NCBI GenBank assembly: GCA_002070215.1 | Contig: MWCV01000020.1 | Location: 1-44,747, forward strand | DNA length: 44,747 bases | Source: Chloroflexi bacterium ADurb.Bin180 | GTDB lineage: Bacteria; Chloroflexota; Anaerolineae; UBA2200 | Direction: 5' to 3' | Shown: one piece after another, positions 28,054-42,825 of the stretch | Numbering within the stretch: the stretch's first letter is position 1 | Layout: each line of letters opens with the position of its first letter | The notes under the pieces: generated by a model | What the model saw: only the letters and a program-made list of their open reading frames with translations | Database searches by the model: none | Told to the model about the DNA's origin: nothing | Translations under genes and position numbers: made by a program

Positions 28054-28887
28054 CTATGTCCGATGCGCGTTTGCGCTTGTCGCAAACAGCACGGTCTTGA
28101 TCTGAAAGGGAGTGAGCTCGGGGTGCTTGGAGCGAATCAGGGTCACAATCCCGGCAATATGAGGCGCCGCAAAGCTGTTGCCTGTCGTCACAATGGTGCT
28201 GCCGTTCTGCCACGCCACTGGCACATCGATACCCGGCGCGCCGAACTCTACCGGTGGTGAAGGATTGTAGTAGAAAGTGTACGGGTCCTTCCCCTCGTGA
28301 GCCGCGACCGAGAGCACTGATGAGTACAGCGAGGGGTAACTGGCCCCGGGGACATTGTTCGCCGCCGACACGAGGAGGCAGTTCTTGAAGTATGCATCGT
28401 CTGCCAACTCGTGGAACAGCCCAAAGTACTCCTCCCGCCCCGTGCTCAGGCTAAGGTTGATCACCTGCATGTCGTTGTCTATTGCCCAACGCAAGCCTCC
28501 GGCGAACTGGAAAGCCCGGCCGGTCAGGTCCCGGCCAAGCACCCTGACACTGTATAGCTCCGCCTCCGGGGCCAGGCTATGAATGATCCCGGCGCAGGCA
28601 GTACCGTGCCCGTATAAATCCACCCTCTCACAGTCCTCTTCCACACGAACCCTGGACCTGGTCCGGCCATCGTAGTTGACAATCACGCCGCCTCGCCATT
28701 GCCCACCAACCGCCGGATGGTCAGCTTCTACTCCGCTGTCGACGACAGCAACCTTCACGCCCCTGCCGGTAGAACCACCCCAGGCCCAGGCCGCGTCGAT
28801 GCCGCCCAAGGGTCCGGTCGACTTGAGCTGGCGCAGCGCTGCGGCGGCAAACTGCTGCGACCAGGCTGGCCTTGACTCTCCACTCAT
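28054..28887 (-). CDS. Subtilisin-like serine protease, no prodomain
   Basis: The 277-residue S8 protease has the full triad: Asp50 (AVVDSGVE), His94 (YGHGTACAG) and Ser238 (TGNSFAAPH), plus an oxyanion Asn in AANNVPG. It lacks a signal peptide and an I9 prodomain; only about 40 residues precede the Asp, so it should act in the cytoplasm. The ATG at 28887 overlaps the stop of the GAF gene in ATGA, giving translational coupling. S8 proteases in peptide natural-product clusters often remove leader peptides or excise cores. I infer this role for the repeat protein encoded two genes upstream. A general intracellular subtilase is the alternative. Confidence 0.9.
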   Translation of the reverse strand: MSGESRPAWSQQFAAAALRQLKSTGPLGGIDAAWAWGGSTGRGVKVAVVDSGVEADHPAVGGQWRGGVIVNYDGRTRSRVRVEEDCERVDLYGHGTACAGIIHSLAPEAELYSVRVLGRDLTGRAFQFAGGLRWAIDNDMQVINLSLSTGREEYFGLFHELADDAYFKNCLLVSAANNVPGASYPSLYSSVLSVAAHEGKDPYTFYYNPSPPVEFGAPGIDVPVAWQNGSTIVTTGNSFAAPHIAGIVTLIRSKHPELTPFQIKTVLFATSANAHRT

Positions 28888-29672
28888 CTTCCCGGCCTCG
28901 GCCGTGAGTCCGCGAGGACTGCGAAGGCTTCGAGCACCTTCAGGCATGCCTCACGCTCAGCGTCGCCCAGCTTGTACAAAGAACTCAGGGTTCTGGCAAC
29001 AGCGAGGATCTGCTCTGTCCCTTGCGGATCCTGCCCTTCCGTCATCACTTGTTCCAACCCGTCGAACCTAATCGAGTTGTCCGACTGGGCGAGGTTCTGC
29101 AGCCCCGCGAGGAGCGCATGGCGCAGATTGCGCTGAAACGTCGCGGCACGGATGGCTACCGCGGCCTGCCGAGCAAAAATGCCCAGCAACTCCATGTCTT
29201 GCATGCCAAACGACGGTGCATCGATCTTGTCGAGGACCTCGATCACGCCGAGCGGCCTGTCGTCGTAGAGCAGAGGCATAGCCAGAATGGATTTGGGCAC
29301 GTAGCCAGTCTTGCGGGCCGTGTCCCGCGCAAAGCGAGGATCCTCCTGCACGCTGGATACGGCCATCGGCTGACCGGTAGCCACCACGTATCCGGCGATG
29401 CCCTGCCCCACTGAAACTGCAAGGCCGATCACTTCGGAAGCTCCCGCTCCCGTCGCCACACGAAACACCAGCTTCTCCTGCGACTCATCCAGTAGCGCAA
29501 TGGAGGCTGCTGCTGCCCCAAAGAGGCGAGCCGCCGCCTCGACAATCGTCTGCAGAAGCTCGTTGCCGGCTTCCGGCAGAATGGCTACGCCAGAAGCTTC
29601 GACGGCCGTCAGCCAGTGCCCAAGCTGAGCCGCCAGTGACTCGTCCTCTGTCCCTTGTTTACGTTTGCTCAT
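28884..29672 (-). CDS. GAF domain protein
   Basis: The 262-residue protein has a GAF domain at about 45-190: LLQTIVEAAARLFGAAAASIALLD, VSVGQGIAGYVVATGQPMAV, ILAMPLLYDDRPLGVIEVLDK and FARQAAVAI. A helical tail to the C-terminus has no output motif. It may act as a cytoplasmic ligand sensor or scaffold. The ATG at 29672, with GAGGTG five bases upstream, is preferred over an upstream TTG. It sits between the repeat protein and the subtilase and overlaps the latter by four bases. A stand-alone GAF with no kinase or regulator attached is uncommon, and its target is unknown. Confidence 0.85.
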   Translation of the reverse strand: MSKRKQGTEDESLAAQLGHWLTAVEASGVAILPEAGNELLQTIVEAAARLFGAAAASIALLDESQEKLVFRVATGAGASEVIGLAVSVGQGIAGYVVATGQPMAVSSVQEDPRFARDTARKTGYVPKSILAMPLLYDDRPLGVIEVLDKIDAPSFGMQDMELLGIFARQAAVAIRAATFQRNLRHALLAGLQNLAQSDNSIRFDGLEQVMTEGQDPQGTEQILAVARTLSSLYKLGDAEREACLKVLEAFAVLADSRPRPGR

Positions 29673-29708
29673 CAATGCACCTCACGACAGGATCCAGGAA
29701 CGCGCCAA

Positions 29709-29736
29709 CCCGGAGGGCTCTTGCGAACCCTCCGGG
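29709..29736 (-). terminator. Stable hairpin between repeat-protein gene and GAF gene
   Basis: A 9-bp perfect stem (CCCGGAGGG with CCCTCCGGG, 10-nt loop) lies in the 98-bp gap after the repeat-protein stop. No T-run follows on the minus strand, so full termination is unlikely. It could act as a weak attenuator or RNA-stability element that lets the short upstream gene be expressed above the downstream enzymes. Confidence 0.45.
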
Positions 29737-29770
29737 GGAGCTATCGCTATTCGATTGTGCCCGGCCAAAG

Positions 29771-30247
29771 CTACGGCTTGACCCTGGGCTTGGCCGCGGG
29801 CTTGGCCACATGGCCCTCAACCTCGGGCTTGGCCGCGGGCTTGGCCGCGGGCTTGGCCGCATGGCCTTCGACCTCGGGCTTGACCACCGGCTTCGCCGCG
29901 GGCTTGGCCGCATGGCCTTCGACCTCGGGCTTGGCAGCGGGCTTGGCCGCCGGTTTCATCACGTGGCCCTCAACCTCGGGCTTGGCAGCGGGCTTGGCCG
30001 CCGGCTTCATCACGTGGCCCTCAACCTCGGGCTTGACTGCTGGTCTGTTCACTTTCTTCAACATGACTTCCTCCTTGATGGATTCGATCTCGATTCTTGC
30101 CGGCCGGTACTGATGCCCGGCCACTTCCCCGAATGACGCCTCTACCATCCCATCCAGCAGGCCGCGCTCATCACTCCTCAGTGTCTGCCTCACGGCGCTT
30201 AGCCGCTTGATGAGCCGTCCCAGAGCACGGGACTGCTTCTCTTCCAT
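29771..30247 (-). CDS. Repeat-tail protein with PEVEGH units; candidate peptide precursor
   Basis: The 158-residue product has a charged helical N-terminus (about 1-70: RALGRLIKRLSAVRQTL, EASFGEVAGHQYRPA, IESIKEEVMLKK). The C-terminus is five tandem 17-residue units (72-156) of the form KPEVEGHVMKPAAKPAA; only positions 8, 9, 15, 16 and 17 vary. An earlier EVAGH (41-45) looks like a degenerate copy. AGGAGGG sets the ATG at 30247. It follows the Crp gene by 87 bp, with a palindrome in the gap, and is followed by GAF, subtilase, NRPS and radical SAM genes. A leader-plus-repeated-core layout suits a ribosomal peptide precursor. The Lys/Ala/Pro spacers also resemble histone-H1-like tails, so a DNA-binding or low-complexity protein is the alternative. 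Confidence 0.75.
   Translation of the reverse strand: MEEKQSRALGRLIKRLSAVRQTLRSDERGLLDGMVEASFGEVAGHQYRPARIEIESIKEEVMLKKVNRPAVKPEVEGHVMKPAAKPAAKPEVEGHVMKPAAKPAAKPEVEGHAAKPAAKPVVKPEVEGHAAKPAAKPAAKPEVEGHVAKPAAKPRVKP
29780..30034 (-). repeat. Five tandem 51-bp repeats in the repeat-tail gene
   Basis: The units encode residues 72-156 of the repeat-tail protein. They differ mainly where the encoded residues vary (VM, AA or VA after GH; AA, VV or RV at the end). Base identity between units is high, with silent differences such as the C/T in the GGT/GGC codons. Recent expansion by slippage or recombination is likely. Confidence 0.9.
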
Positions 30248-30318
30248 CGTTCTGCCCTCCTGATGCCAACTCATTCCCTCTTTCTGGCACCAGTCTACAG
30301 CATTCCACCGCCTTTGTC

Positions 30319-30334: not shown

Positions 30335-31030
30335 CTAGCGCGACTCCACCTCCTCAGCCTCCCGGCGCAGGGCTGCGCGGTTCAGCAGAACGATCTTGCC
30401 CCGACCGGTGAGAATCCACCCATCCCGGCGCCACCGGCCGAGCAGCTCGGCCACTGTCTGCCGGGCAAGCCCGACCCGTCTGCCGAGATCCTCTTGCGAG
30501 CAGGCAATGTACCCGAGGTCCTTAGCCCGCCGATCCATCTCTAGCAAGACGCGTGCCAGACGAGAGTCGGCATCCAGGAAGGCCAGTGCCCCTTCACGCT
30601 CGCTTGACTTGCCCAGGCGGCTCGCCGCCTCGCGGAGCAGGTTTTTCGCCATCGCGGGTTCCGACTCGAGCACGGCCGCAAAGTCATGGCGCGATATCGC
30701 CCAGAGTACGCTTGGCTCACTGGCGATAGCGCCAGTGGAGCGCGGCTGACCAGTGATCAAACCCAACTCTCCGAAACCGTCACCAGGCCGCATCTCGTTG
30801 ATCACCAGCTCGCGCCCGCTCGCACTATCCAGTCCGAGCGAGATCGACCCGCTGGCAACCAGGTAGAACGCGTCTGCCGAATCACCCTGTGCAAAGAGCA
30901 TCTGCCCCCGTTCTAGTCGTCTTATCCGAGCCGCGGCTGCCAGGAAGGCCAGGCCGCTCGGCGATACACCGCTGAATATGCGACACGTCGCGAGGATTTG
31001 CTGGATTGCAGAAACCTGGGTGGTGGCCAT
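30335..31030 (-). CDS. Crp/Fnr family transcription regulator
   Basis: The 231-residue protein has an N-terminal CNBD (about 15-130) with the phosphate-binding cassette intact: GDGFGELGLITGQPRSTGA, where the Arg contacts the cyclic phosphate. A dimer helix and a winged helix-turn-helix with recognition helix GLARQTVAELLGRWRRDGWI follow. No Fnr-type cysteines are seen, so cAMP or cGMP is the likely ligand. The ATG at 31030 lies one base after the stop of the PP2C gene. It is the last of the signalling genes and directly precedes the repeat-tail gene, so it is the natural candidate to control the biosynthetic part of the cluster. Confidence 0.92.
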   Translation of the reverse strand: MATTQVSAIQQILATCRIFSGVSPSGLAFLAAAARIRRLERGQMLFAQGDSADAFYLVASGSISLGLDSASGRELVINEMRPGDGFGELGLITGQPRSTGAIASEPSVLWAISRHDFAAVLESEPAMAKNLLREAASRLGKSSEREGALAFLDADSRLARVLLEMDRRAKDLGYIACSQEDLGRRVGLARQTVAELLGRWRRDGWILTGRGKIVLLNRAALRREAEEVESR

Positions 31031-31031
31031 C

Positions 31032-32282
31032 TTACGCTGTTGCGCGAACCGAGACCAAGAGGATATCGTCCTCTGGTGATGCTGCGCCACAATGAGCGCG
31101 CACCGCACCAAACGCTTTCTCGCAGATGCTCTGGGCCGACTGATGACCCGCCTGGCTCAACGTCCAGAAAAGGCGCTCCGCCCCGAATTGCTCGCCGCTG
31201 CTATTACTGGCTTCTGTCGCTCCGTCGGTGTACAGCAATAGCTTCCCCCCCTCTGGGATGGCCAAATTCTGCATGTCCAACACCAGTTCTTCGAATAGCC
31301 CAAGCGGTTGACCCACCCCCTGAGCAACCACAACCTGCGATCCGTCCGCCCGGGCGACTACAGGACTGGGATGGCCTGCCCGTGCATAGGTGAACGCGCG
31401 GACCGGGCCATCCAGAATGCCATAGAGCAGCGTTACGAACATGCCCGAGTCGCTGATGCCCGACAGCTGGCGGTTGACACTGCGCAAGACCTTGTCTGGC
31501 GCCCCTCCGCGGCTCGCCTCGCCGCGCAGCAGGCTGAAAGCCAGTGCCATAAACAGCGCTGAACCAACTCCGTGTCCACTGACGTCGCCGATGGCGATAC
31601 CCAGTCGGTCGCCCTTGAGCGGGAAAAAGGCGCAAAGGTCCCCGCCGACACTTGACACCGGCTCGATCAGCATACCGAATTCATAGCGAGGTAGCTTTGG
31701 AGCCGCCCGTGGTAAAAAGCTGCGCTGGATCGACCGCGCCACCCCAAGCTCCACCTCGAGGCGTTCCTTCTCGACCAATTGCGCCTGGGCCGCGCGCAGC
31801 TCGTCATAGGCACGCGTTAGCTCGCGGTTTTTCTGCAAGAGGTCGCGAATGGTCTGGTTTTCCGATTCGTCAAGACGCTGGCTCATCGTGCGCACGAGGT
31901 CGTAAGCGAGCGCCGGCTGCCTGCTGATAAGGCCGGCCATCTCGCTTCGGGGTAGTGACAAGGCTTCCAGCTCCGTTGCGGCGCGAACGCTGGCTGTATG
32001 CGCTCCTTCGCCATCAAACAGGCTCATCTCGCCGATGAAGGACCCTGGTCCCCGCACACCCAGCAGCCGCTCGCCGTCGGTCCCCAGGGCCTTGAGAATG
32101 TCGACTCGGCCATCCAGCAGTACGTAGAGACGTTCGCTGCTTTGACCCTCGAGCAAGAGCAGCGCGTTGGCGGGGAAGGTCTCGCGGCGGCCCAGTGCCG
32201 CGAGATGCTCCAGCTCGTGCTGAGGTAGGACGGCAAAGGCCGGAACCCAGTGGATCAGGTCACCTGCAGTAATGGCTTTCAC
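31032..32282 (-). CDS. CNBD-PP2C (RsbU/SpoIIE-type) protein phosphatase
   Basis: The 416-residue protein joins an N-terminal CNBD (about 15-130), a coiled coil (about 145-178) and a PP2C-like phosphatase domain (about 185-410). The phosphatase has metal motifs VGGDLCAFFPL and IGDVSGHGVGSALFMA, then LLLYTDGATEA and PEDDILLVSV. In the CNBD cassette (IGEMSLFDGEGAHTASV) the phosphate-binding Arg is replaced by His, so classic cNMP binding may be altered. RsbU-type enzymes dephosphorylate anti-sigma antagonists or similar partners, but none is seen in the window. The GTG start at 32282 overlaps the stop of the cyclase gene in GTGA. Confidence 0.92.
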   Translation of the reverse strand: MKAITAGDLIHWVPAFAVLPQHELEHLAALGRRETFPANALLLLEGQSSERLYVLLDGRVDILKALGTDGERLLGVRGPGSFIGEMSLFDGEGAHTASVRAATELEALSLPRSEMAGLISRQPALAYDLVRTMSQRLDESENQTIRDLLQKNRELTRAYDELRAAQAQLVEKERLEVELGVARSIQRSFLPRAAPKLPRYEFGMLIEPVSSVGGDLCAFFPLKGDRLGIAIGDVSGHGVGSALFMALAFSLLRGEASRGGAPDKVLRSVNRQLSGISDSGMFVTLLYGILDGPVRAFTYARAGHPSPVVARADGSQVVVAQGVGQPLGLFEELVLDMQNLAIPEGGKLLLYTDGATEASNSSGEQFGAERLFWTLSQAGHQSAQSICEKAFGAVRAHCGAASPEDDILLVSVRATA

Positions 32283-33313
32283 GACACTCTACCCTTCAGC
32301 GCAAACACGTGCACAGGCCTCGTCTTGCCCTTCACCTCAACCTCGCCCAGGTCTTCCAGAGCAAAGGCATCACCCAGCCCATCCCGCGTGGCATCATCCA
32401 GGAGAATCGGCCGACCGGCCACCTTGGTGTACGCCTCGAGCCTGGCCGCCTGATTGACCGTGTCTCCTACACAGGTATAGGTGGCCCGTTGCTGAGTGCC
32501 AGTATAGCCCGCAATTACGTCGCCCGAGGAAATGCCGATACCGATCCTGATGGGCTGAAGTTTGCGTGCCACGCGGTCCTGATCGTACTGCTCAATCAGC
32601 TCGATCATCGACAAGGCCGCTCTCGCAGCGCAAGCCATCCTGTCCTCACAGGGCCTCGGTGCACCGAAAATGGCCATCAAGCCGTCGCCTACGATCTGGT
32701 TAACTACGCCGCTCTCACCGGTTATGGCATCCATCATTAACGTGTAATAGTCGTTCAGCAACTCGATTGTGTCAGCGGGCGGCTGAGACTCTGATATGGT
32801 GGTGAAGCCGCGGATGTCTGAGAACATCACTGTAGCAGGCACGTACTTTCCACCCAAGGCAAAACCAGAGGCTTCGAGGTCTTCGGCAACCTCCTTGGTA
32901 GCGAACTTGCGAATCAGTTCGCGCTGCTGGTCGCGCAGGCGCTTCTTTTCAAGGCTGGATCCGATGCGGGCTTTCAGGAGTACGGGGTTGATCGGCTTGG
33001 GCAAATAGTCTTCAGCACCCATCTCGATGCACCTGACCACGCTGTCGAGCTCGCCAACCGCGGAGACCATGATCACAGGGACGTTCTTGAGCTCGGTGTC
33101 CGCCATGAGCTCTCCCAGCACCTGGTAGCCATCCATCTCCGGCATGAGTACGTCCAGAAGGACGAGGTCATAGGGGGCAGCTCTAAGCATCTCGAGCGCT
33201 TGTCGTCCATTCTCCGCGAAAGAGACATGGTGGCCCTGCTGTTCAAGACCTCGCGCCAATAACAGACGATTCATCTTGTTGTCGTCAACCACCAAGATCT
33301 GACTGGTCTTCAT
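32279..33313 (-). CDS. Response regulator fused to class III nucleotidyl cyclase
   Basis: The 344-residue protein has a receiver domain (1-120, phosphorylation Asp54 in LLDVLMPEMDG, Lys106) and a short helix. A class III cyclase domain follows (about 155-335) that makes cAMP or cGMP. Metal ligands Asp166 (MFSDIRGFT) and Asp210 (VGDGLMAIFG) and the transition-state pair Asn287/Arg291 (VNQAAR) are present. The usual substrate-specifying Lys is Gln206. Thr278 stands at the position that is Asp or Thr in adenylate cyclases, so specificity is uncertain. AGGTG precedes the ATG at 33313, 30 bp after the hybrid kinase stop. Phosphorylation by that kinase should control cyclase output. Confidence 0.94.
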   Translation of the reverse strand: MKTSQILVVDDNKMNRLLLARGLEQQGHHVSFAENGRQALEMLRAAPYDLVLLDVLMPEMDGYQVLGELMADTELKNVPVIMVSAVGELDSVVRCIEMGAEDYLPKPINPVLLKARIGSSLEKKRLRDQQRELIRKFATKEVAEDLEASGFALGGKYVPATVMFSDIRGFTTISESQPPADTIELLNDYYTLMMDAITGESGVVNQIVGDGLMAIFGAPRPCEDRMACAARAALSMIELIEQYDQDRVARKLQPIRIGIGISSGDVIAGYTGTQQRATYTCVGDTVNQAARLEAYTKVAGRPILLDDATRDGLGDAFALEDLGEVEVKGKTRPVHVFALKGRVS

Positions 33314-33343: not shown

Positions 33344-36300
33344 CTAGGTTTGGCGGCGTGCTGCCAGAGCGACCTTGACGCGTCCGAACTCGACGCTAGC
33401 CGCCGCCACCTTGGCTGCAGCGCCGTCCAGCGTGTTGGCCTTGCCCATCATCTCCAGCTCCTTGGCGAGTGCTGACAGGGCGAGCGCCCCAAGCGAAGCG
33501 CTGTTTGATTTCAGCGAGTGAGCTGCCCTGCGGAACGTCTCTGCATCGCCGCTGCTCAAGGCACTCCGCATCTGGTCAAACAGAGCAGGCGCGTCGCCCA
33601 GGTATGTGTCGATGAGCTCATTGACAAAGGCCGGATCTCCCCCGGTCGAACTCACCAACTCCTCGAACGTCTTGGCATCGATGGCCCCAGTGTCGGACAC
33701 GGCTTCTCCTTCTGTGGCTTGAGTGGGTGCCGACCGCGACAGCGCAGCTACTAGCTCGTTGACGCGTATCGGCTTGCTGAGGTAATCATCCATTCCCGCC
33801 GCAAGACACATCTCTCGGTCGCCCTGCATCGCATTGGCAGTCATGGCAACAATCCGCGGCCTCTTGCCGGCAGGCCAGCGCCGGCAGATCTGCCGTGAGG
33901 CTTCCAAACCATCCATCTCTGGCATCTGGACGTCCATCAGGATCACGTCGTAGGTCTGTCTCTCCACTGCCTGAATGGCCTCCAGACCATTTCCAGCAAC
34001 GTCGGCCCGGTACCCCATCTGCGCCAGAATCCGCAGGGCCAGTTTCTGGTTGACAGCATTATCCTCGGCCAGCAGAATCCGCAGCGGCACACGTTCCGCC
34101 AGCCCGGCATCAACCACAGGTGCGGTGGCTTGCCGCGGAACTGGCGCCGTCGTCCCGGGGAATAGCGAGGCCAGAGCATCGAAGAGCGTGGACTGCTTCA
34201 GCGGCTTGTTGAGGGTGGCAGCCACCTTCAGTTCTTCGGCGCGAGGCTCTTTGCGCCCCAGCGACGAGCAAAAGAGCAGCACCAACTCGTCTGGCCCGCG
34301 CATCCGCCTGATCTCCTCTGCCAGCTCCACCCCGTCCATTTCCGGCATGCTGATGTCCAGTATGGCCACGTCGAACGGATCGTTGCGGCGAATCCACTCC
34401 AGCGCCTCCTTGGGTGAGCCTGTGTCACGGGCCATCATTCCCCAGGCACGAGTCTGGCGCACAATAATCATCCGGTTGGTCTCGTTGTCGTCCACGACCA
34501 ACAAGCGCCGGCCGTCCAGCTGCGGTTGGGCACCCTCGTGATGGGCCCGCGATACGAACTCTGGCGCTGCAGCAGCATGAATGGAAAAGAAGAAGGTCGA
34601 GCCTTTGCCCTGCTCGCTGTCCACGCCTATGGACCCGCCCATCAGCTCCACCAGGCGCCTGCTGATGGCCAGCCCCAGGCCGGTGCCACCATACCGGCGT
34701 GCCGTCGACGGGTCTACTTGACTGAAGGACTGGAAGAGCCGATCACGTCGATCAGCAGGGATGCCAATGCCCGTGTCGCGCACAGCAAAGCGCAACTCCG
34801 GGGCTGCTCCGCTCACCGTGACCACCACCTCGCCGCGCGTGGTGAACTTGACCGCATTGGTCAACAGGTTAATAAGCACTTGTCTGAGCCGCGTCAGGTC
34901 GCCCACGATGGCGCTCGGAAGCCCGTCCTCGAAAACACAGGCCAGGTCCAAGCCCTTCTCGGCTGCTCGCGGGGCAACCAGGTCGAGGGCGCTCTCCACG
35001 CAGGCGCGCAGGTCAAAGGGCCGGCTCTCGAGCTCCATCTTTCCTGCCTCGATCTTGGAAAAGTCGAGGATATCATTGATGATCGTGAGCAGGGCGTCAG
35101 CACTGTTGCGGATCGTATCGGCAAAGTCGTGCTGCTCCGCATTCAGTGGCGTATCCATCAGCAGGCCGCTCATGCCAATGATAGCATTCATTGGCGTGCG
35201 GATCTCGTGGCTCATCGTGGCCAAGAAGGCGCTCTTGGCGGCATTGGCTGAATCAGCGGCAGCCTTTGCTACCTGCAGCTCCTGCTCTGCCTTCTTGCGG
35301 TCGGTGATGTCGCGAATCGATTCAATTGCCCCTACCACATCGCCCTTGGCGTCGCGCAACACCGAAGCGGTGGCCAGCATGTGCCGACCTCCGCCGAGCA
35401 CCGGTGTAAAAGCCTCACCGAACAGGGTGGCCCCATCGCGCTGAATTGAGGAGTATGACTGTTGCCATTCTTCGGCTGGTTTGCTAAGGAGGTCGATAAG
35501 GATCGGACGTCGCTCGCCATAGAAAGGGACCGAGTAGGCATAGTCACCCTGGCCCAGCATCTCAGAGGCATCAACGCCGGTCATGCGCTCCATCGCTCTG
35601 TTCCAGGCGATGACGCGACCCTCGCGGTCGATGACGAACGTAGCGTCCGGGAGGAATTGGATGATGTCGGCCATTTGCCGCCGCGACGCATCGGCCGCAA
35701 CCCGGGCTGCCTCCGCCTGCTCAAAGAGCCGGGCATTGCCGATGGCGATAGCCGCTTGCCTGGCAAGGCCAACAGCAAAGTCAAGGTCGTTCTTAGTGAA
35801 GGGCCCCTGAACTGGCTTCTCGCGCCAGATGGTCAACACACCGATAGTGATGTCGCCAGAGGACAAGGGCGCAAAGAGAATGGCTTCGTTTTCCTCTTCG
35901 CTATCGGTACCTGCGATGTGCACCATGCGCGGGTCCTTCAACGGCTCGTTCAGCATCTCCGGAACGCCGGAGTGGCAAACTGATGAGGTGATGCCTTTCC
36001 CAGGGTAGACAATATCGTCCTTCAAGACATCCGCATACTTGCCCAGCGCAATCACGGTGCGCAGCGTTCCGTCGTCCTGAAGCAAACGTAGCGCGACATC
36101 ACGGGCATTAAGCACTTGCATGGCACGGGTAGCGATTCGCTCCAGAACCTTGGCCAGATCGAGTGTCTGAGACACCTCGCGGCCGATCTCTGTCAGAGCA
36201 GCCATCTCATCCCCGCGCTGCTCCGCCTCGGCAAAGAGGCGAGCATTCTCCAGAGCCACGCTCAAGTTCAGTGAGAGCGTGGTGAGCAGCCTGAGGTCGC

Positions 36301-39300
36301 CCTCGCTGAAGGCGTTCTCGCGATCGATGTTCTGTAAAGTGATGATCCCCCTGACCTCGCCCCCCATCAGCAAGGGCACCCCCAGGTACGAGCGAGGAGC
36401 TTCACCAGCGACGACCGTGCTGCCGTACTGCTCTGCCACCCGGTCCAGATCCTGATTGATCATCAAGGGCTGGCGCGTCCGCAGAATATGGGCGGCAAAG
36501 CCGCTGGGTTGGCGCGGAGCGGGGAAGGCCCGAACACCCTTCTCCCGGAGATAGCGATAGGTCAGCAGATCCAGCGACTTGTCGTAGGTGATGACGCCGA
36601 CAGACTGCGCGTCGAACACCTCACCTAGCTTGTCGCCCATGGTCTCATAGATGCGGTCGAGGTCGAGCTGCCCTACCAGCATCTGCCCGACGTCGCTGAT
36701 TTCCTTCAATTCCGAGGCGCGCATTTCGGTCTCGGCGAGCAGGCGTTTGGTTTCATCGAACAAGCGCGCGTTCTCCATCGCCACGCCCATCGAAGAGGCA
36801 ACCGTTGTGAGCAGACGCACGTCCGCCTCGCCGAAGGCATTCTCTCTGTCCAGGTTCTGCAGAGAGATGGCGCCTCGCACCTCTCCGGCCGCCAGCAGAG
36901 GAACATTCAAGGCAGACTGGGCCGGTTGCGTGCCAGGAACGGTCTGTCGACCACCAAAGGCCGCCATACGCTCGGTCAGGTTATCGTTCAGGAGGACAGG
37001 CTGACCGGTGTGGATCAAGCGGTCGGCCACACCACCAGGTCGCAACTCGTAAGGCTCGTCAAATACTCGCTGCCCCCGCTCGATGCCATAGTGCGGGTAG
37101 ACCATTCCCGTATCTCGGTCGTAAGTGCTGAGGGTCACCACCTGCGCGTCAAATAGATCGCGGACCTTGTCGCCAACTAGCTCGTAGATGGAGTGCATAT
37201 CGAGCTTGGAGGCCAGCCCCTCCTGCACTTGGTTAATGATTTGGAGTTCTGCGGCTCGCTGGTCTGTTTCCTTCAGCAGACGCTTTGTCTCCTCAAACAG
37301 GCGCACGTTTTCGAGTGCCACACTCATCGACGAGGCAAGCGTGGCCAGCAGGTTCACATCGTCCTCTGAGAAGGCGTTCTCGCGCTCCACGTTTTGCAGG
37401 TCGATCACACCCAGCAGTTCGTCTCCGGCCAGCAACGGCACCCAGAGAGCGGACCTGGGAACCTCTGTGCCTGGCGATACAGTCATGCCTTGAATCTGGC
37501 TGAGACGCTCTGGCAGGTTCTCGTTGATGAGCAGGGGCTTGCGCGTCTTTCTCAGGATATCACCCAGACCTCCCGTCGCCAGTGGATAAGGCGGATCGTG
37601 CACACGCTTACCCTTTTCGACAGCATACTGCGGACGGCAGACTCCTGCCTGCCAGTCGTAAGTCGTGATGCCCACGCTTTGTGCGTCAAAGATCTCGCGA
37701 ACTTTGTCTCCGATCAGCTCATAGATGGCCTCCATATCGAGCTTGGAGGCCAAACCCTGCTGGACACTATTGATGATCTGCAGCTCGGCCGCCCGCTGGT
37801 CTGTCTCTTTCAGCAGACGCTTCGTCTCCTCAAACAGGCGCACGTTCTCGAGGGCCGCGCTCATCGATGAGGCCAGCGTGGTCAGGAGCCGCACCTCCGA
37901 CTCACTGAATGCATAGTCACGGTCGATGTTCTGCAGGGAGATGACCCCGCGGACCTCGCCGCCGACCAACATGGGCACATACAAGAGCGACTTGGGTGTC
38001 TCGGTGCCAGGCACTAGTTGCATCCCGCCAATCGGGGCCATTGTCTCTTCCGTCACGCGGTTTACCAGCAGCGGCTGCCTATTGCGGCGCAAGTACTCCG
38101 CTACCCCTTTCTCAAGAATGGGTGCTGGCCCCGCGTGAAAGCGCTTGCCCTTTTCGATACCGTAATGATCGATAACGATTCTCCTCTGCCAGTCATAACC
38201 GGAGATGGCAAGCGCCTGGGCGTCAAAGATATCGCGAACCTTGTCACCGACGAGATCATAGATGGCCTGCATTTCCAGCTTGGACGCCAGCCCCTCTTGC
38301 ACACTGTTGATGATTGCCAGCTCCGCCGCGCGCTGCTCGGTCTCCTTCAGCAGGCGTGTTGTCTCGTCGAACAGACGAGCTCGTTCGAGGGCTGTGCTCA
38401 TCGAAGCAGCGAGAGTGGTCAGCAGGCGCGCGTCGCTGTCTGTGTAGCGATTCTTCAGCCAGTCCCCCATGGCGACGACCCCGAGAACATGGCTGCCAGA
38501 CAGGATGGGAACGCCCAGCCACGACTCACGCATCTCGGTTGTGCCATCATTGACCGCGACTGTGCCGCGGTTCTTTCCTTCTTCCTTTGAACTCAATACC
38601 AGCGGTCGGCGCGTCGTGACAACGATGGAAATGAGGCCGGTTCCCAGAGGCGCTGCAGCAACGTTTGGTCGGACCCCATCGTCCTCCACCCAGTAGGGGA
38701 AGCTGAGCTGATTCAGTGCTTGGTCATACAGGGCGATGAGGACGTTCTGCCCGCCCAGGGTCTCTCGGATCTTGTCTCCAACGATGTCAACGATGGCCTG
38801 CCGGTTCAGCTCGCCGGCCAGGTCGTGCTGGACGCTGCTGAGGATTGCGAGTTCTGCATTGCGGCGCTCCAGCGCGGTGTTGGACGTGGATAGCTCGGCG
38901 GTGCGCTCCGCCACACGATGTTCCAAATCATGATACAAACGCGCGTTGTCAATGGCCGTCGCCGCCTGGTTGGCAAACAGCGAGAGCAGCTCCAGGTCCG
39001 CCTGGTGGAAGGAACCGAATACCGCCCGCGTGTCCGCGTAGTGCAGGCCAATCATCTGACCCCTGGCGATCAGCGGGGCGGCCATCCGGGACCGCCAACG
39101 CCCCGGGGCCTCTCCATTCGCGTACGTCGCCCGTTGCTCCTGCTCCAGAATCCCCGTCCGCGAGCCGGCCGCTCGCTCCAAAAAGCCGGCGACCACGCTG
39201 CGCAACTGTTTGCTCTCTTCGGCAGCCACCCCACGAGTGGTCCAGCTCTGTGGCTGCCCGTGCTCATCGAGGAGCACCAGCACCGACCGCTCGGCCCCGT

Positions 39301-41029
39301 TGAGCTCCACCGCCTCGTCCATCACGAACTCGAGCAGTGCTTCCGGCTCCCTCTGCTCATTCATACGTACACTGATTTCCATCATACGCTTGAACTGGTC
39401 CTGGAGGCTGCCTTCGAGGGGTTCCAGCTCGGCCACTGCAATTCCCCGCTCGGCGGCGACGTTAGTCCACTCCAGGGTGATCTCGCGATTGACCTCGACT
39501 TTGTTCAGGCAGTTGCGCCTGAGCCCTTCGTCACTGAGGTTGGTCAAGGTTGACAGCAGCATTTCGCGGGCACTATCCAATGCCTGCCAGGCCTGCTCGC
39601 GAGCCCGTTTACCTCCCCTCGGGCTGGCCTGAAGGACCTGATACCTCCGCCACCAGACGAGCTGCAACGGGTACTCGGGAGTGACGATTCCGGCGGCGTC
39701 TAGACGCTGTGCTGCCTGAGCCGTGTGTTCGTTGGCGGACTGCCAGTCGCCAGCTGCCAGTTCGGCCGCACCAAGCATGGCCAATGCTGTGATTTGGTCC
39801 CCCGGCGACTGGCCCAATTCCACCAACTCCACCGCGGTCTTGAATTGCTCACGCGCGGCTCCGAGCTTGCCCTCAGCCATGTCCACGAGACCCAACCCAA
39901 GGCGGTTATACCCCTCGCTTAGCCGGTTCCCGATAGAGTGAGATACCGCCGTGCCTTCCTCTAGGATTCTGCGCGCCTCTTCGTAGCGGCGCGCGTCAAT
40001 CATGGGCCTGGCCTGAGTCTCAAGGAGGGTGGACAGGACCGCCGGAGAGTTAAGGGGACGGACCTTTTCGAGCACCCGATCAATGTACAACTGCGCCTTG
40101 CGATAGAGCCCAAGGCGCCAGTACAGGAGCGAGAGGTTGTTCAGTACGGTGAGTTCGCGGTTCTTGTCGCCCATGTTGCGGGCCGATTCGAGTGCCTGCT
40201 CAAGGTAGTCGCGTGCCTGCGCGTGGTCGGTGCTGATGATGCCCAGCATGTTAAGAGCGACCGCCTGGCCGGACACATCGTTGGTCTCGCGTGCGATTGC
40301 CAGCGCTTCCAGCAGATGCAGACGCGCCTGATCAGCATTCCCGGCTGACTGGTCCGCTGCGGAGAGCAGGGTGAGGCACTCTCCCCTACCCTTCCGGTCG
40401 CCGGCCTCCTCGCACAGCTTTAGCCCGGCAGTGCAATACTCACCGAGGTGAGCATAGTCTTCCGCAAAGCTGGCCGCACTGGCACGGGCGACCGCCAGCC
40501 GGGCTCGAAGATGGGCATCACCAGTTTTGCCCACCAGGGCCTCAGCTTGCTCCAGCGCGCTGGAGGCTTCCTCACACGAACCACGCCAGGCGAGGCGGTC
40601 TGACAGAGCGATCAGGGCTCGGGCCCGCCTGGCGTCATCGCTCTCCTGGGTCGCCAGAGCTTGGGCTTGCCGAACGTCACCGAAAAACGCATCCTGCTCC
40701 CCGTTGCGCAAATGGATCTCGGCACGGCCCATAAGTAGTTCGAACTGGGCCACAGCCGACGCACCACGCGGTCGAGAGGGGAGCAGCTTGAGCGCGCGAC
40801 TGTACAGGTCCAGCGCCGTATCGTTGTCGAAGCGTTGCGCAGCCCTGTCAGCCTGCGCTCTGAGCTCTAGCGCCTCTGCCAGGGCTCGATTGCTCTGGCG
40901 CTTGGGTGTACCTGGTGCCAAAGTACGTTTCGGAGTACGAGGTCCCGAGGCACGCTTTGAGGCACCTTTTCCCGAAGCACCCTTCGGCGCCCTGACCGCT
41001 GCCGCGTCCTTGCGCTTGTTCATTGCCAT
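33344..41029 (-). CDS. Giant hybrid histidine kinase: TPR-GAF(7)-PAS-HK-REC-REC-Hpt
   Basis: The 2561-residue kinase starts with a Lys/Ala/Pro-rich basic tail, then about 12 TPR-like helix pairs (about 35-500). Seven GAF domains follow (about 555-1780); GAFs 3-6 are near-copies with the motif [15 protein letters not shown] domain (about 1795-1910) leads to HisKA with His1941 (SHEIRTP) and the ATPase domain ([22 protein letters not shown]). Receivers carry Asp2225 and Asp2366, and the Hpt carries His2504 (AHSLKSN). No membrane span is visible, so it is cytoplasmic. GGAGAAG sets the ATG at 41029, and TGATG overlaps the transporter stop. The Hpt would pass phosphate to the receiver-cyclase encoded next. 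The TPR array suggests binding of protein or peptide ligands. Confidence 0.95.
36628..38280 (-). repeat. Internal tandem duplication of GAF-coding DNA, period about 538 bp
   Basis: Homologous starts of GAFs 3-6 lie near 38280, 37740, 37203 and 36664. The linkers between them (for example 37260-37340 and 37797-37876) differ by only a few silent or conservative bases. Such similarity suggests recent domain amplification. Confidence 0.8.
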
Positions 41030-42825
41030 CACTTCTCCGCTACGCCCTGGTCTCTCAGTTCGCGCAACGCCTGTTGATCGAATCCGGCCAACCTTGGCCA
41101 GTCCGAAGTGTGCGTGCGGCTGAGCCGCTCGGTGGCGGTGGTCAGAAACAGGCGGCGCAGTGAGGGGATCTCGATCCACCCACGCAACAGCCTCGCCGGA
41201 ACGATCAGTACCTTGCTCCCCTCTATCGCGACCACGTTTGCCGTCCGAGGCTCACCGCTCAGCGCCGCGATTTCGCCGAAAAAGTCGCCCGGTCGGTGCG
41301 TGGAAAGCGAGCGGTAGCCGCCTTCCGCCGTCTCGCTGGGCACGCCTGCCGCTGCGCGCCCTTCAAGCACAAAATAGACCTCGTCACTTCTGTCGCCCAG
41401 CTTGACAATCGATGTTCCCTCAGGAACATCGAGGATCGAAGAGTCGGCCACCAGCGCCTGCCTCTGCTCAGGAGTAAGGATTCCCAGCGTGGGTAGTTTT
41501 CCTACCAGAAGGTCGACATCAGCCAGTGTGGCCGGGCGTGCGGCCCGCGGTGCAGCCGCTGCGGGGGCGCGGCGCAGCAATTCGAGTGCCCTCTTCCATT
41601 CGGCAGCCGGCTGACCGAGGCCGGGAACGACCAGGGCCCACGCACCCGCGCCCAGGGTCATCAGCGCACTAACGAGATAGAGCAATCGGATGGGGAGCAC
41701 ATCGGCCAGCCCCGCGGCGGCCATACCCACCAGGAACAAAACATCACGACAAACGAAAAAGGCACTGTTCACCCTGCCCCTCAGCTCGCGAGGAGTGTTC
41801 CGTTGCACCGCGAGCGAGCGCGCAATGGACACGGGGGCGTTCAGAAAGCCTGACAGCGCGATGACCCCGATGGCCAGCGCCACCGAGCGCATGGACGCAT
41901 AGACTATGCTGACGAGTCCCATGCCGATGAGCCCGAGGGCGATCCACTGACCCTCGCGCAGTCGATCTGAAACGCTGCCCATCCAAAGACTGCCCAGCAC
42001 AAACCCAACCGAGGTGACCGCTTCCTGGATGCCGTACTCAAATTCCGATGCTTTGAGCGCGGTCAGGGCGAACGGCAGCAAGAGTGTGTTTGATAACCCA
42101 AAGGCCACAAATATGATAGAAAACACCAGGAACAGCGACCGCAGGATGGGCGTGGTCAGGAGCGCTACCGCACCCTCCTTCAGGTTGCGACCGATGGCTG
42201 CCAGGCCTGAATCCGCCACCGCAGTCAACGCGGGAATGCGGGCTAGCCAGATCATCAGGGCAGAAAAGGCATAGGCCACCGCGTTGAGATAGAACGCCCA
42301 CTCGATGGACATCGCCGAGGCAATGAGGCCAGACGCGGCGAACCCGATGGCCGTCGCACCGAACGAGCTGATGGCCATCAGCGAGTTGGCCGCTGCCAGC
42401 TCCTCATCCGTGGCGATCTCCGGCAGCACCGCCTCGTGGGCAGGGTCGAAGAACTGGGTCACTGCCGCGCTGAGGGCGACGATGATGTACAGCCAGGCCA
42501 TGCTGAATGGGATGAGGAAAGGAATGAGGACGACCAGGACCGCGCGAATCAGGTCTGCCGCGACCATGATGGCCTTACGGTCATAGCGGTCCACGACCAC
42601 TCCTGCGAGCAAGCCAACCAGGATGGTCGGCGCGGCGGAGGCCATGAGCATCAACCCCACCGACGCCGCGGACCCAGTCAGGCGATATACCAGGATCGAC
42701 GCCGCCAGCGAGGTGAGCGACGCCCCGATGGTCTCGACAACCTGGCCTACCCAGAGCAGACCAAAGCTGCGATTGCGAAATACTGCAAAAGGTGAGGTCT
42801 GGCTCCGAGCGACTGTGTGCGTCAT
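41029..42825 (-). CDS. MFS transporter with C-terminal cyclic-nucleotide-binding domain
   Basis: The 598-residue protein has a 12-span MFS region of the MFS_3 type (about 1-405; loop VVDRYDRKAIM, QRNTPRELRGRV). A proline-rich linker follows, and then a cytoplasmic CNBD at about 455-585. The CNBD phosphate cassette is intact: GDFFGEIAALSGEPRTANV, with Arg in place. MFS_3 members mostly export drugs, siderophores or peptides by proton antiport. The tail implies gating by cNMP, which the cyclase two genes down would make. The ATG overlaps the peptidase stop (ATGA), and the stop overlaps the kinase start. Fusion of a CNBD to an MFS carrier is uncommon. Confidence 0.92.
   Translation of the reverse strand: MTHTVARSQTSPFAVFRNRSFGLLWVGQVVETIGASLTSLAASILVYRLTGSAASVGLMLMASAAPTILVGLLAGVVVDRYDRKAIMVAADLIRAVLVVLIPFLIPFSMAWLYIIVALSAAVTQFFDPAHEAVLPEIATDEELAAANSLMAISSFGATAIGFAASGLIASAMSIEWAFYLNAVAYAFSALMIWLARIPALTAVADSGLAAIGRNLKEGAVALLTTPILRSLFLVFSIIFVAFGLSNTLLLPFALTALKASEFEYGIQEAVTSVGFVLGSLWMGSVSDRLREGQWIALGLIGMGLVSIVYASMRSVALAIGVIALSGFLNAPVSIARSLAVQRNTPRELRGRVNSAFFVCRDVLFLVGMAAAGLADVLPIRLLYLVSALMTLGAGAWALVVPGLGQPAAEWKRALELLRRAPAAAAPRAARPATLADVDLLVGKLPTLGILTPEQRQALVADSSILDVPEGTSIVKLGDRSDEVYFVLEGRAAAGVPSETAEGGYRSLSTHRPGDFFGEIAALSGEPRTANVVAIEGSKVLIVPARLLRGWIEIPSLRRLFLTTATERLSRTHTSDWPRLAGFDQQALRELRDQGVAEK

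Follow-up and report, generated by a model that had tools for sequence, protein, structure and literature searches.

We can conclude that the gene at positions 29771 to 30247 of the 44,747-nt stretch of DNA analysed here (the window) encodes a repeat-bearing peptide whose locus is conserved and includes a subtilisin-type protease of its own, an arrangement that makes a cleaved precursor a plausible interpretation. In the explanation that we favour, and to which we would give about an even chance, it is a multi-unit precursor from which the linked cytosolic S8 subtilase would excise peptides that are subsequently exported. The peptide family is undescribed in the libraries and literature searched; it pairs a peptide that carries repeats with a single orthologous protease, and the cleavage rule proposed for it is at the level of single residues.

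The gene and its immediate surroundings comprise the following features.
29771..30247, minus strand: precursor peptide CDS of 158 aa, start ATG at 30247 and stop at 29771, laid out as leader (1-40), degenerate motif (41-47), linker, five 17-aa units and short tail
30256..30260, minus strand: ribosome-binding site GGAGG of the peptide gene (sequence)
30134..30241, minus strand: two-helix leader, residues 3-38, the family's conserved part (AlphaFold2, alignment)
30107..30127, minus strand: leader-end motif E-V-A-G-H-Q-Y, with the proposed first cleavage site after Y47
30062..30076, minus strand: internal AAGGAGG-N5-ATG (Met62, MLKK...), candidate second start (sequence)
29780..30034, minus strand: five 51-bp / 17-aa units KPEVEGH-x2-KPAAKP-x2 (translation, TRF)
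29705..29738, minus strand: GC-rich hairpin between the peptide stop and the GAF start, with no U-run (z -1.9)

The coordinates of the initial annotation are correct, the reading frame lying on the minus strand (30247-29771), and the five 17-residue units with an invariant K-P-E-V-E-G-H core that it described, preceded by a single E-V-A-G-H, are indeed seen in the translation; TRF finds 5.1 copies of 51 bp with 88% matches (score 340). The helical N-terminal part is likewise recovered by AlphaFold2, which places helices at residues 3-22 and 25-38 with a mean pLDDT of about 90 and leaves the remainder disordered. Residue changes among the units are found at unit positions 8, 9, 16 and 17. The motif is under purifying selection, since its codons vary only synonymously: the V, E and H codons compared from unit to unit give 18 synonymous and 0 non-synonymous pairwise differences, and the seven motif codons again show 0 amino-acid changes between the window genome and that of a close relative, G004 (Anaerolineales bacterium UBA6131). 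A Shine-Dalgarno sequence and ATG equivalent to the Met62 start are also present in G004 despite different local amino acids, and it is possible that this start, found in this family-level lineage only, gives rise to a nested, leaderless array product.

The peptide of G004 is 66% identical over 154 residues, and more distant members were recovered with a profile of the leader and two units. A leader profile built from 13 members matches 13 of 396 Anaerolineae genomes (E 2e-25 to 2.5e-18, with the family cut at E<1e-17), the next best match being at 5e-4. The leader consensus in the alignment reads M..K...L.RL.KKLSALRATL..DER.LLD..V....EV.[GA]H, and the motif E-V-x-[GA]-H-x-[M/L/F/Y] is found where the leader ends and once more in every unit. 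The leader-end copy is present in all 13 members, with the motif His at residues 40-52 throughout, and the lineages differ in copy number, in unit length (17-26 aa) and in their spacers, which are unrelated from one lineage to another. Arrays of constant spacing occur in seven lineages, at 17 residues in G000 and G004, 18 in G209, 22 in G246 and G206, 24 in G285 and 26 in G301, and the remaining members have one or two motifs. Several members have in common a C-terminal tail like LEFDxxTGGYxV, VTFNADTESYQVI or VIFDNEREEYRIVN, which the window member lacks. Two short one-motif members with an FD-x-Y-x-V-like tail (G071, locus L051; G116, locus L052) lie directly behind an orthologous CRP gene with no S8, GAF or MFS gene nearby, and perhaps represent the simplest form of the system. 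Searching Pfam and NCBIfam with the leaders gave no family above cut-off, RiPP_near_DynW appearing at noise level only, and 380 genomes from other classes of the phylum gave just two weak matches, namely a 1014-aa frame and a short [DE]VQG[FY] peptide. Furthermore, literature searches on EVEGH repeats, Anaerolineae RiPPs and multi-core subtilases returned nothing relevant to the family. A viral or plasmid origin was also considered and rejected, viral contigs and plasmids having yielded no relative.

The remaining genes of the locus are as follows.
28054..28887, minus strand: S8 subtilase, 277 aa (Pfam, BPN' alignment, ortholog profile)
28884..29672, minus strand: GAF-domain protein (Pfam), beside the peptide in other loci too
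30335..31111, minus strand: CRP-family regulator, directly upstream of the peptide and its most widely kept neighbour (Pfam, tblastn)
31032..32282, minus strand: SpoIIE-type phosphatase with cNMP-binding domain (Pfam), kept in G004, G209, G285 and G301
32279..33313, minus strand: response regulator fused to a class III nucleotide cyclase (Guanylate_cyc; Pfam), conserved
33344..41179, minus strand: giant multi-GAF hybrid histidine kinase (Pfam), conserved
41029..42825, minus strand: MFS transporter with C-terminal cNMP-binding domain (Pfam), candidate exporter

By tblastn of the window proteins, 12 of the 13 genomes, G071 and G116 included, have the CRP regulator beside the peptide or close to it, and the MFS gene adjoins the peptide in six other genomes. 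Downstream of the peptide the relatives have the GAF protein and usually the S8 subtilase; the giant GAF histidine kinase, the response-regulator cyclase and the SpoIIE phosphatase are frequent further neighbours, and a STAS protein is found in two genomes. The assemblies of G004, G209 and G285 break in the array, such that one contig stops after the leader half and a second starts with the array 3' end, directly upstream of GAF and then S8. The GAF gene of the window overlaps the protease start by ATGA, which suggests that the translation of the two may be coupled. The locus was also considered as a defence system, but the PADLOC matches turned out to involve nothing beyond cNMP-binding domains held in common or subtilase domains of a generic kind.

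The protease carries the triad motifs DSG, GHGT and GNSFAAP and the oxyanion motif SAANN in a subtilase domain (PF00082, E 4.5e-30) aligned to subtilisin BPN', and so has the Asp/His/Ser triad and oxyanion Asn of peptidase family S8; its predicted structure, from an eight-row alignment, is of low confidence (mean pLDDT 37). Pfam gave no match to an I9 prodomain, and since a signal sequence is evident in neither the protease nor the peptide, both are probably cytosolic. The ortholog profile of the protease also matches 13 of the 396 genomes, 10 of which also carry the peptide (Fisher p 3e-15, a value that overstates independence since the genomes are related and from few families), and all eight members with at least two motifs come from genomes that have the protease. 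The peptide is found without it in the single-motif G071 and G116 and in G300, where the contig stops after the GAF gene, and the protease without the peptide in G001, G309 and G329, the last two on contigs that end close upstream of S8 or GAF. The G071 and G116 peptides that lack the protease, and the protease that G001 retains despite loss of the peptide, count against the explanation we favour, and so do three further arrangements: the protease is on a different contig from the peptide in G246, it lies about 6 kb from it in G206, and G246 has on contig C124 (L101:7025-8775) another GAF-S8 pair (identities of 36% and 55%), beside a KAS III-like gene and with no repeat peptide in sight. On contig C28 of G001 there is an out-of-frame junction (L009:9270-9300) of MFS residues 1-290 with GAF from residue 120, by which about 12 kb with the genes for the peptide, CRP, SpoIIE, cyclase and kinase are gone and S8 is intact, owing either to a genuine deletion or to an artefact of assembly; in the same locus what looks like a pair of restriction-modification genes lies between S8 and the NRPS gene (L009:6194-7826), and the window has no such pair.

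The position two residues after the motif His, overlooked in the initial annotation, is what suggests where the protease may cut. Of the 13 leader motifs, 12 have M, L, F, Y, I or V here, against a background of 19% (binomial p 3e-8), and of 33 distinct contexts of the motif, 28 have M, L, F or Y, with the next residue mostly T, S or K, although Ala in three of the five window units and Ser in G071 speak against a cut site. Subtilisins favour large hydrophobic P1 residues, and the C-terminus of the BPN' prosegment is a natural P1 end, a product sitting in the active site. This terminus (1spb chain P) reads D-H-V-A-H-A-Y and so has the pattern [DE]-x-x-A-H-x-[large hydrophobic], a likeness that, the motif being short, could be a chance resemblance. 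From the constraint two residues after His, the P1 preference of subtilisins and the prosegment end, we propose that E-V-x-[GA]-H-x-[hydrophobic] probably occupies P7-P1, with the cut after the hydrophobic residue. The candidate cleavage sites are conserved in the alignment; a multi-copy peptide precursor would release its units by proteolysis at such sites.

The leader would then dock the precursor, and the subtilase would read each motif and release peptides of 17-26 residues with one repeated sequence, for instance an 18-mer KGKVTKTYDEPEVEAHQL in G209 and a 22-mer TTGAAKAIKAAKGGNEVAAHAM in G246 by the proposed rule. The peptides are probably unmodified, since there is no conserved modification enzyme. 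The MFS protein may export them. It counts against the precursor explanation that no exporter of the typical peptide-secreting class is conserved in the loci. The cyclase and cyclic-nucleotide circuit would, together with the GAF protein, gate production, and the released peptide might act outside the cell as a signal or antimicrobial, which is the least certain step. Placing a hairpin behind the first gene is a common means of raising its output over that of later genes, and the one that follows the peptide gene would in this way hold the precursor above the level of the protease. A strong hairpin occupies the same place in eight of nine loci, with unrelated sequences and z of -1.95 to -5.4 in the seven other than the window. 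In three of them (G170, G246, G206) a T-rich run behind it makes it an intrinsic terminator; the window hairpin, which has no U-run, was passed over by a simple terminator scan. In G301 the gap between peptide and GAF is only 39 nt and the hairpin is absent. The kept leader and motif, the purifying selection on the motif codons, the free spacers, the co-occurrence with S8, the array 3' ends found directly before GAF-S8, the hydrophobic residue two past His, the prosegment likeness, the hairpins and the combination of a helical leader with a disordered array are all counted in favour of a cleaved precursor.

The array could instead stay inside the cell as a multivalent pseudo-substrate or adaptor, binding and regulating the S8 or GAF/CRP proteins, and be no source of released peptides. 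Its disorder, the CRP gene that adjoins the peptide even in the two loci that lack S8 and MFS (G071, G116), and the likeness of the motif to a subtilisin prosegment end in combination with a protease devoid of an I9 prodomain all agree with such a role, which we nevertheless consider unlikely, since spacers that are homogeneous inside an array and unrelated across lineages are what variable released products would be expected to show, since a P1-like hydrophobic residue followed by T, S or K fits a cut site, and since the MFS transporter is conserved. That the units bind metal, as a buffer or metallophore controlled by cAMP and CRP, is improbable. Each unit does offer a Glu and a His in an i, i+4 arrangement, with the motif His in 13 of 13 members, E, D or Q always four residues earlier and most His outside the leader falling within motifs, but the hydrophobic residue two past His, the subtilase partner and the single-motif members would be left unexplained, and the locus has no conserved metal gene.

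The initial annotation placed the gene directly before a protease, an NRPS module and a radical SAM enzyme, and regarded it as a multi-core precursor suited to enzymatic tailoring. The order holds broadly, with the GAF gene between peptide and protease, and the multi-unit precursor is retained by virtue of the protease, given a leader and motif kept in 13 genomes and an orthologous S8, but tailoring by the adjacent radical SAM enzyme and/or NRPS is highly improbable. While the window does have these genes, 2 to 7 kb downstream, they have no match in any other peptide locus examined; the radical SAM orthologue is on other contigs in G004 and G001, G300 has a 31% relative, and the orthologue is missing at E 1e-30 in 10 of 14 genomes searched. 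The NRPS is furthermore present in G001, which has no peptide, and in G004 an ABC transporter takes the place of the window's genes behind the protease. The S8 protease is shared by 10 of the 13 peptide-bearing genomes; the NRPS and radical SAM genes are local to the window. The two-helix leader and variable repeated units are what a RiPP precursor would have, but no modifying enzyme is common to the loci and the peptide belongs to no known precursor or leader family, and since the modification enzyme is not conserved a RiPP classification is unsupported. Equally remote is the Lys/Ala/Pro-rich nucleic-acid-binding tail of histone H1 or AlgP type, to which a resemblance had also been noted. The window array is cationic, at +9 after the leader, but charges among the members run from +16 to -9, with the arrays of G209, G285 and G300 neutral to acidic (0 to -9), and conservation sits in the acidic EVxxH motif and not in the Lys/Pro spacer. 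There is hence no conserved cationic low-complexity array, and a conserved DNA-binding role is unlikely. Least credible of all is a low-complexity repeat with no selected function, whose units are homogenised by unequal crossing over; near-identical DNA units and assemblies that break at arrays would be in line with this, but the motif codons change only synonymously and one motif is kept amid unrelated spacers.

Comparison with the neighbouring genome thus dissolves a tempting association with radical SAM and NRPS genes, and if the cleaved-precursor explanation is right, a protease-only, multi-copy peptide pathway is added to the Anaerolineae, a class that is mostly uncultured. A likeness to the leader comes from another class, in G516, with small peptides whose two-helix-like leader ends in [DE]VQG[FY] (hhalign probability 90%, E 1.4e-6 against the leader profile); in an alignment of three of these, EVxGH falls near VQG[FY], with an aromatic residue at the His position and no repeats. 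NCBIfam gave no name above cut-off for these peptides, three of which are clustered in locus L105. Among known systems, the cyanobactin precursor PatE has several cores with short recognition flanks and a leader in front, and its locus encodes the PatA and PatG subtilases. The window locus is similar in having a multi-unit precursor, a leader and a subtilase, but its S8 scores only 24.2 bits against TIGR03895 (cut-off 421) and so falls far short of the PatA/PatG model, no heterocyclase or PatG-type macrocyclase is seen, and motif and leader are unrelated. The LanP proteases of ElxP type are likewise cytosolic S8 enzymes of about 300 aa with no prodomain, which cut off a lanthipeptide leader, but the window locus has no lanthionine synthetase and many proposed sites instead of one. 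Yeast prepro-alpha-factor, finally, carries tandem copies of a short peptide excised by Kex2, also of the S8 family, a parallel that is an analogy only, being from another domain of life and involving dibasic sites and processing in the secretory pathway. It is nonetheless conceivable, and we suggest it tentatively as possible rather than probable, that the locus is a bacterial counterpart of prohormone processing, in which a tandem precursor under cyclic-nucleotide control would be cut by a dedicated cytosolic subtilase into many copies of a short, unmodified peptide for export by an MFS protein, the peptide sequence diverging from lineage to lineage in the manner of pheromone or bacteriocin specificity.
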